Shown: positions 1-1,923 of the stretch, piece by piece | Position numbering within the stretch: the first letter of the stretch is position 1 | Layout: each line of letters begins with the position of its first letter | Source of the DNA: an uncultured bacterium | GTDB lineage: Bacteria > Patescibacteriota > Gracilibacteria > Absconditabacterales > Absconditicoccaceae | Length of the DNA stretch: 35,340 nucleotides | Direction: 5' to 3' | Assembly: GCA_947170225.1 (NCBI GenBank) | Contig: CAMVSQ010000010.1 | Location: 1 to 35,340, forward strand | Position numbers and translations under genes: made by a program | The notes under the pieces: generated by a model | The model's input: the letters and a program-made list of their open reading frames with translations, nothing else | Told to the model about the DNA's origin: nothing | The model's database searches: none

Positions 1-1663
1 TGAAATTATTGTTTGGCATATTGATTCACATAATTCATAGCTGATATGCTAGACTAACTCCGTCATCATATTCAGCATCTAATTTTTCATCTACATCATT
101 AAATTTATTTGTTCTTGTTTCGTCTGGTGTTTTTCAAAGTACATTGATAGCGTATTTGCTGAGCATCTTTGCCATAGCAATTCTAGTCAAGTTTCCGTTC
201 AAATCAGCTTTTTCTACCGTATCCATTGTAGTGATTCAGTTTTCATATGCTCGCTCATATGCTATTTGAAATTCACCTTCTCCGTCATTTTGAGCCTGCG
301 AAGAATCTTTACTTCCACATGTTCCGTCGTAATATGAGTCTGAATAATCTCCATTTGGACAGTCATCTTTTTCTTTCTTTACTCATCCTCATCATGCTGT
401 TCATCCATTATTTAGTGCATTTCTCCAGATAGCTTTCAAAGTCGCTCATCCAAGTGGCATAGTATCTGGAAATGCTGGACTCCAGCTATCAAACACTGCC
501 CCTGCTTTTGTAGGATTTGCTGGTGCTGATACTGGTGCATTATATGGTGCTGTGATTGGACTGATTGCTGATCATCAGTCTGTGTCAAATATAATTGTAT
601 ATTCATTTACATCCCATCTAGCTACAAGGTCTAGATTTCCTGTAATGGCTGTTGTAAGGTCATATTGTGTATCTGTTCAGCTAATAAACCATCCACTAAA
701 TGTATGTCATGTTTTTATTATCGCTGTATAATCTGCAAGGATATCCATTACTGTACCAGAGTTTGAAAGGATGGTCCCAGATTCTACTTCTCCACTCCAG
801 ATTTGAGTTGTTTGGTCTTCGTCGTAAAATGATATTTGAAACATAGTAGGCAAGAAATTTAAAGGAGAATTTTTGAAACAACGAAGAGAAAAAGCAGATG
901 AACGATAATCTAGCATAAATCTATATCAATTTGCATCAATATCGATAAAAAATGCATGAACAATACTATTTTTACTAGGTGTAGATGTCCAAAAGCGAGC
1001 TGTACCTCCAATATGATAAACAGCATTATTTTTTAAACGGAAACCAGCAAGTGGCACATTAAACGGTATATTGAAAACTTCCTGAAAATTTCATGTGTTA
1101 TTATTTCACCATGCATTCATAAACAGCCAAAACTCTCCATAACTTGGTATATGATATCAATTTGGACACGGTCATTGCCTATCTGTCACTGGCACATCTG
1201 ACTGTAATCAATAATCATTACTGTTGTCATCTCCACTTCATCATCGCAAATTATCATTAATCACCGCATCCCAATTATCATGTCAATATATGAAAGTTCA
1301 TGACATATACCAATTTCATGGTCAATATCCACTAGTATCTACCTGCGTATTATCAGCATTTTCTCCTCATGGGAAAGCGGTACATCCATAAGCATCTGTA
1401 CATGGCATAAATCAATGGCCATTTCACCACTGAAAATGATATCAATAAGAATCTTCTCATGTTCAGGCTACACTTGCTCATAGATTTTTGTCCATCATTG
1501 TAACGCAAGTTTTAAATCTTCCTGGATCACATACAGTAATTGTGCCTATTCCATCTACTTCTTCATAATAAACAAAATTACTCTCTGCATTTACCTTTGA
1601 AAATCACAATACTCCTACCGCAAATCACATTAGTAATGCAATCAAAAAACTTTTTCTTTTCAT
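1..1663 (-). CDS. Secreted FISUMP / InlB-repeat surface protein with SLH-like C-terminus (3' end outside window)
   Basis: Read with TGA as Gly, one frame runs from the ATG at 1663 through the left edge (554 codons visible). It starts with a signal peptide (KRK, then a hydrophobic stretch ending near VNA, residues 1-26). Residues about 40-270 form a Fibrobacter succinogenes major paralogous (FISUMP) domain: MDKNLGA, SYGYHFQWGNG, CPNGYHIPS and the closing AFSLRC. Two InlB/Listeria-Bacteroides-type beta repeats follow, each ending in a short aromatic motif (LVARW, LKAIW). A Gly/Lys/Cys-rich linker leads to a region resembling an S-layer-homology domain (ITRIAMAKMLSKYA-like segment, then KFNDVD). 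This architecture suggests an exported cell-surface or adhesion protein; the ligand is unknown. It stands alone behind a promoter with a homopolymer spacer. Domain calls come from motif recognition, not a search. Confidence 0.85.
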
Positions 1664-1778
1664 CAATATTTCTTAATAATTAAAAAACTCTATCAAATCA
1701 CCATCCAACAAATAGTAATTTGAATCCATAAAATATATTTTATATTCCATTTTTTTATCCAAATTTCAAGCCTTTTCT

Positions 1779-1805
1779 CTAATACCCCCCCCCCCATTCT
1801 GTCAA
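1779..1805 (-). promoter_or_regulatory. Promoter with poly-G tract between -35 and -10 (candidate phase-variable)
   Basis: On the minus strand a perfect -35 TTGACA (1805-1800) is followed by GAAT, eleven consecutive G (1795-1785) and TATTAG (1784-1779, 4 of 6 matches to the -10 consensus). The spacer is therefore 15 nt, of which 11 are one base. Gain or loss of G would move it toward or away from the 17-nt optimum. The start codon of the surface protein is about 115 nt downstream. A weaker alternative promoter (TTGAAA ... TATAAA) lies nearer the gene. Confidence 0.55.
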
Positions 1806-1847
1806 ATTTGTGATATAATATGGGTAAAATGTTTTTTTAATATAAAG

Positions 1848-1873
1848 AAAAATAACTGTTTCCAGTTATTTTT
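1848..1873. terminator. Intrinsic terminator hairpin
   Basis: AAAAATAACTG and CAGTTATTTTT form an 11-bp stem around a 4-base loop, with A and T flanks that allow termination in both directions. No gene lies immediately on the plus-strand side, so the relevant direction is probably minus, where it ends the two-hairpin RNA element upstream of the surface-protein promoter. Confidence 0.7.
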
Positions 1874-1923
1874 CACCCTACGATTTGTTAGTTCGTTTGA
1901 TTGTGGTATTTAAACTTACTAAC
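1848..1923 (-). ncRNA. Two-hairpin RNA element with intrinsic terminator, copy 1
   Basis: On the minus strand GTTAGT (1923-1918) pairs with ACTAAC (1892-1887), with a further 4-bp GTTT/AAAC helix inside. The loop contains ACCACAATC. The linker carries TCGTAGG (1883-1877), followed by an 11-bp terminator hairpin (1873-1863 with 1858-1848) capped by a GAAA tetraloop. Copy 2 at 15873-15951 shares loop, linker and terminator stem but has a different first stem that still pairs. A possible promoter (TTGAAA, 16 nt, TATACT at 1961-1956) precedes it, so it may be an independent RNA of about 100 nt. Function unknown. Confidence 0.5.

Follow-up and report, generated by a model that had tools for sequence, protein, structure and literature searches.

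A poly-G tract in the spacer of a candidate phase-variable surface-protein promoter from an uncultured Absconditicoccaceae bacterium

A run of 11 G was found between a −35-like and a −10-like hexamer upstream of a predicted surface-protein gene, and it is probably a PorA-like contingency element in the promoter of that gene, with a length that would vary by slippage. The window (the whole stretch of DNA analysed) comprises 35,340 nt of contig CAMVSQ010000010.1 from assembly GCA_947170225.1 (952,577 bases in 24 contigs), and was called contig C10 in the genome comparison.

The minus strand reads TTGACA (1805–1800), GAAT (1799–1796), G11 (1795–1785) and TATTAG (1784–1779), exactly to the base as the preliminary description had it, and the plus strand of the same site reads CTAATA (1779–1784), C11 (1785–1795), ATTC (1796–1799) and TGTCAA (1800–1805). 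The homopolymer forms the bulk of a 15-nt spacer. TTGACA matches the −35 consensus at 6/6 positions and, across the class, co-occurs with a following G run; TATTAG is a weak −10-like hexamer (4/6, with no T at position 6). A homopolymer of at least about 8 between the two hexamers characterises porA-type promoters, and the window site carries one of 11 G, with a weak −10. The tract was present in 0 of 100 dinucleotide-preserving shuffles of the window (GC 31%), and a search of either strand gave no second run of at least 6 G. A sigma-70 promoter scan of the region did not list the site, because of the missing T at position 6 of TATTAG and the spacer of 15.

The tract lies 121 nt upstream of the ATG of the target gene (2–1663, minus strand), of which 554 amino acids could be read before truncation by the contig end. 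Its N-terminus, MKRKSFLIALLMGFAVGVLGFSKVNAES, is signal-peptide-like by inspection, and the frame matched List_Bact_rpt (E 3.9e-14) and Fib_succ_major (E 1.2e-6, under its curated cut-off). About 10 paralogs were found in the genome, one of which, on contig C3, additionally carries an SLH domain (1.4e-6) at an SLH-type C-terminus. The product is predicted to be surface-exposed from its signal-peptide-like N-terminus, its List_Bact_rpt and FISUMP matches and the SLH domain of the paralog, in agreement with the earlier description of a signal-peptide FISUMP surface protein behind the tract, with the Fib_succ_major match remaining sub-cut-off. UGA is read as glycine (code 25): 28 in-frame TGA were counted in the neighbouring leuS, many of them where glycine is expected. 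Between this upstream leuS (4865–2256) and the promoter lies an intrinsic-terminator-like hairpin (1847–1874, minus strand), which would end the leuS unit, so that the surface-protein gene needs a promoter of its own within 1846–1664.

Seven G runs of at least 7 were found in the whole assembly (G12, G12, G11, G10, G9, G8 and G7). Their lengths are flat where chance would give a drop of several-fold per base, and the tract is therefore not a chance run. Of the five runs of at least 9, four precede a gene for a secreted surface protein or belong to a copy of the same control region. Besides the G11 of the window, before its List_Bact_rpt signal-peptide ORF, these are a G12 on C9, 82 nt upstream of a List_Bact_rpt signal-peptide ORF; a G12 on C7, 49 nt upstream of the start codon of a signal-peptide ORF with a DUF285/BspA domain; and a G9 on C24, in the same element as those of C9 and C10 and 45 nt from the contig end. 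The C7 tract is part of TTGCAA-T-G12-ATATG-TATAAT (18-nt spacer) with 38 nt from TATAAT to the ATG, and is a cleaner promoter case than the window site. The G10 on C3 was ruled out as a further switch, as it makes up the 5′ side of the stem of a terminator that follows the stop codon of the paralog. The remaining runs are a G8 on C4 and a G7 on C18.

The element shared by C9, C10 and C24 reads ATATTATATCACAAATTnnACnnAAT-G(9/11/12)-TATTAGAGAAAAGGCTTGAAAT and occupies 1763–1822 (minus strand) in the window. The tract is 12 G long in C9, 11 in C10 and 9 in C24, and the flanks that adjoin it are kept, with one change downstream of the tract in C24; kept flanks around unequal tracts appear to be a direct in-genome sign of length change. 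TATTAG is identical in the three copies, while TTGACA at the −35 position is peculiar to C10, C9 having TAAACA and C24 TTTACG in its place. Distances within the copies vary by up to 3 nt, so that spacing is not constant. No further occurrence of the element, beyond short AT-rich matches, was found in 49 genomes of the family. On the opposite strand, TGTGATATAAT (1810–1820, plus strand, and also in C9 and C24) forms a perfect extended −10 that points opposite to the gene; the C tract occupies the corresponding −35 position. A divergent promoter was rejected as the cause of the conservation of the element, given that a divergent gene (nth-like) is found only at C9 and is absent from C10 and C24. 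Locus L013 on C24 holds, between 54 and 732 (plus strand), a small ORF, MSLFGDEIDQNYVDFAFIPKNQFSIDSWLAFI, preceded by TTGACA-16-TATAAT and followed by a terminator-like hairpin.

Slipped-strand mispairing at replication would add G to the tract or remove them from it in the living population. A changed number of G would change the −35 to −10 distance, and with it the rate of transcription, if transcription starts at this site with TTGACA and TATTAG as its boxes; the outcome would be a population whose cells differ in this surface protein. In view of the T missing from position 6 of TATTAG and the 15-nt spacer, the promoter as assembled would be OFF or only weakly active. Tracts of G12–G13 would be stronger, with G13 giving 17 nt, at which the spacings of ordinary promoters peak among the matches listed in the all-bacteria control. 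The arithmetic of the earlier statement that two more G would give the 17-nt optimum thus holds, and its premise is weak for TATTAG as the −10 and unconserved in C9 and C24 for TTGACA as the −35. The boxes are for these reasons the least certain part of the reading. The distance of 115 nt from the −10 to the ATG also counts against it, being longer than the 24–56 nt found mostly in class members with a clear −10. The genome encodes a MutS-domain protein, which may be MutS2; no mutator state can be invoked in its presence, and loss of mismatch repair was ruled out as support for switching.

The class was surveyed in 353 genomes with the pattern TTGACA-N1-8-G7+-N0-8-TANNNT. About 44 distinct places in 30 of these genomes matched TTGACA-G7+-TANNNT; the same genomes gave 2 matches to the reversed pattern and 5, in 3 genomes, to the C-run pattern. 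Spacer G runs on the non-template strand are thus about nine times as frequent class-wide as C runs, and poly-G in the spacer is, as judged from these matches, a recurrent and strand-biased feature of the class. Many, and not all, of the products behind a clear −10 are secreted, lipo- or membrane proteins. Four G9 runs were found in the congener G001, and three of them are part of TTGACA-AATT/AAATT-G9-A/T-TATACT/TATAAT; the products of the three genes concerned gave no match to Pfam and begin without a clearly hydrophobic stretch. Eight matches to the spacer-tract pattern were found in viral contigs. A pattern scan of all bacteria (84,980 species genomes) included, among the matches listed, Clostridia, Bacilli, Treponema, Saccharibacteria (G14, G9), Nomurabacteria and Peribacteria.

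Tracts of other placement were found in two genomes. In G016, of the same family, a G11 (L068, 2508–2518) and a G9 (L069, 2533–2541) are inside the 5′ coding part of genes for signal-peptide surface proteins, and the other two frames meet stops after 1–55 codons; both look like translational switches. In G029, ATGA-G10 (L084, 2472–2481) starts a prepilin-like frame that, read by eye, does not share the frame of the pilin domain at the assembled length, and another G10 (L079, 2491–2500) interrupts a GNAT-like frame; an error at either run is possible in view of the fragmented assembly of G029.

Spacer length was regressed on G count over 160 sites from all retrieved loci, excluding the window site itself, and gave a slope of 0.92 ± 0.13 (0.99 ± 0.32 for relatives only, n = 30), with a non-G flank of about 8 nt in the 160-site set. 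A constant optimal spacing predicts a slope of about 0, and spacer length is therefore uncompensated. The slope was not forced by the pattern, because its flank limits (1–16) permit compensation. Random co-occurrence would also yield a slope of 1, and is ruled out for the class by the reversed and C-run controls, not by the slope. A spacing of 17 nt was found in 12/124 G-tract promoters and 36/87 ordinary promoters of the same loci (p 1e-7; all bacteria, among the matches listed); for relatives only, the counts were 4/30 and 8/53, small numbers with no significant difference. The comparison with related genomes for which the preliminary description had called gave a divided answer. Lengths vary within G216 (a pair of G14 and G10), G373 (copies with spacers of 15 and 18 nt before near-identical downstream DNA) and G554 (a pair with spacers of 15 and 16), and are constant in G394 (spacer of 19 in all three paralogs), in G034/G040 (both G8) and in G112/G529 (spacer of 16 in both, by substitution). 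The earlier proposal of a phase-variable promoter is partly supported: the copies of 9, 11 and 12 G, C7, the congener, the class set and the slope favour a spacer homopolymer that could vary a promoter, while TATTAG as its −10 is weak and TTGACA as its −35 is not conserved.

The leader of 115 nt downstream of the tract (1664–1778, minus strand) has a stable fold (z −2.9 against shuffles; −4.1 for its hairpin part). The hairpin has 14 pairs, followed by U6, and lies shortly before the start codon. Terminator-like hairpins with U-runs were also found in the leaders of three paralog or sibling surface genes (z −2.6 to −4.1), and the leaders of L159, L162 and L169 have in common TTTGGCGACT, followed by its complement. 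An Rfam search of the window leader region gave no match. It is possible that these hairpins are attenuators and form a second layer of control over the surface genes. A short upstream frame, MEYKIYFMDSNYYLLDGDLIEFFNY, runs from about 1750 to 1670 (minus strand) in the window leader; its start is also found in C24, and the frame may be due to chance.

Several other readings of the tract were weighed. It may be slippery and yet lie outside the spacer, with transcription starting elsewhere in the leader, for example at TTGAAA-19-TATAAA within 1769–1735, so that its length would alter the distance to an activator or UP element, as is the case for upstream poly-G tracts in certain other bacteria. 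TTGAAA and TATAAA each match at 5/6 positions in C10, the AAAAGGCTTGAAAT block is the best-conserved part of the three-copy element, and in G016 a G10 lies immediately before a clear promoter, TTTACA-17-TATAAT, that belongs to a List_Bact_rpt gene. A spacing of 19 nt is poor, however, C9 diverges directly past TTGAAAT and lacks a similar −10, and the tracts of C7 and of the class-wide set are within spacers; a start downstream is considered unlikely. We consider it rather improbable that a G-rich spacer belongs to the fixed structure of one class of promoters (as a DNA shape or a regulator site), with constant spacing and incidental length changes. The constant sets (19/19/19 in G394, 16/16 in G112/G529, G8/G8 in G034/G040), the strong preference for G rather than C in the non-template strand (about 44 against 5) and the MutS domain would fit such a feature, whereas spacers that grow one-for-one with the G count and copies of unequal length in G000, G216, G373 and G554 do not; moreover, slippage of pure G tracts of 9–14 is to be expected whatever the bacterium.

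Control mainly by attenuation at the leader hairpin, with the tract a by-product of duplicated upstream DNA, would draw on the z values of the leader (−2.9, and −4.1 in the hairpin part), the terminal hairpin with U6 and the comparable hairpins of the three other leaders. It is very improbable, as it leaves unexplained the G tracts that mark surface-gene promoters, had no match in Rfam, and invokes a layer that can coexist with the tract. Hardly any weight was given to an artefact of sequencing or assembly (poly-G from dark cycles in two-colour chemistry) or to a chance run: the assembly is in 24 contigs and three tracts lie close to the end of a contig (C24 at 46, C7 at 1001 and C10 at 1785), but unique homologous sequence flanks the tract on both sides at three loci, shuffles do not produce it, its placement in the genome is non-random, and it recurs class-wide in independent assemblies. 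A slippage-variable tract within the promoter spacer is accordingly the reading that we prefer.

Among the closest known systems is porA of Neisseria meningitidis, in which a poly-G of 9–11, the same lengths as here, is in the spacer of the promoter of a major surface protein, and surface PorA is high at 11G, about 2-fold lower at 10G and 13-fold lower at 9G (PMC3639595). Both the length change and its effect on expression were measured for porA, whereas the window system is known from sequence alone; its −10 is weaker, its leader longer and its host a candidate-phylum bacterium with UGA as glycine. The Gracilibacterium BD1-5 is of the same broader group, reads UGA as an amino acid, and has a hypervariable PTD-repeat gene in which repeats vary what is probably a surface protein; its repeats are of nine bases and in coding sequence, unlike the G11 promoter tract, and the words ‘homopolymer’ and ‘promoter’ are absent from the text of that paper (PMC6851277). 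The promoters found in Saccharibacteria, Nomurabacteria, Peribacteria, Clostridia, Bacilli and Treponema (TTGACA-flank-G8..14-flank-TATAAT) share the arrangement and have stronger −10 boxes than the window site, and they too are known here only as sequence. The tpr genes of Treponema pallidum, which encode putative outer-membrane proteins, carry poly-G tracts in their promoter regions, and the likeness, homopolymeric G upstream of putative surface genes, is one of general description.

In the open-access literature, no report was found that joins phase variation with promoters of Absconditabacteria or Gracilibacteria, nor any of spacer poly-G promoters in UGA-Gly bacteria or Patescibacteria; the coding repeats of BD1-5 were the one link of phase variation to these lineages that the searches gave. 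The earlier claim of novelty stands in so far as no report was found for UGA-Gly bacteria, and has to be narrowed in that the kind itself is widespread in bacteria, other Patescibacteria included: the type of promoter is already known, and its occurrence in this lineage is what no report was found for. On the broader claim, that phase-variable promoters with poly-G spacers, nearly always on the non-template strand, have been placed independently before surface and secreted genes throughout the Gracilibacteria-type Patescibacteria and would be the first phase-variation system to be described in UGA-Gly bacteria, our judgement is evenly balanced. If the class-wide set is what it seems, stochastic surface switching would be part of how presumed episymbionts meet their hosts or phages. 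Should the tract slip, the contingency-locus logic of well-known host-adapted bacteria would extend to uncultured bacteria of candidate phyla, and the surface variation of the latter would be directly measurable in existing metagenomic reads. Such tracts would mark surface proteins under selection from outside, by a host bacterium, a phage or a predator, and would supply, for organisms that do not grow by themselves, ready-made reporters of switching within the population.
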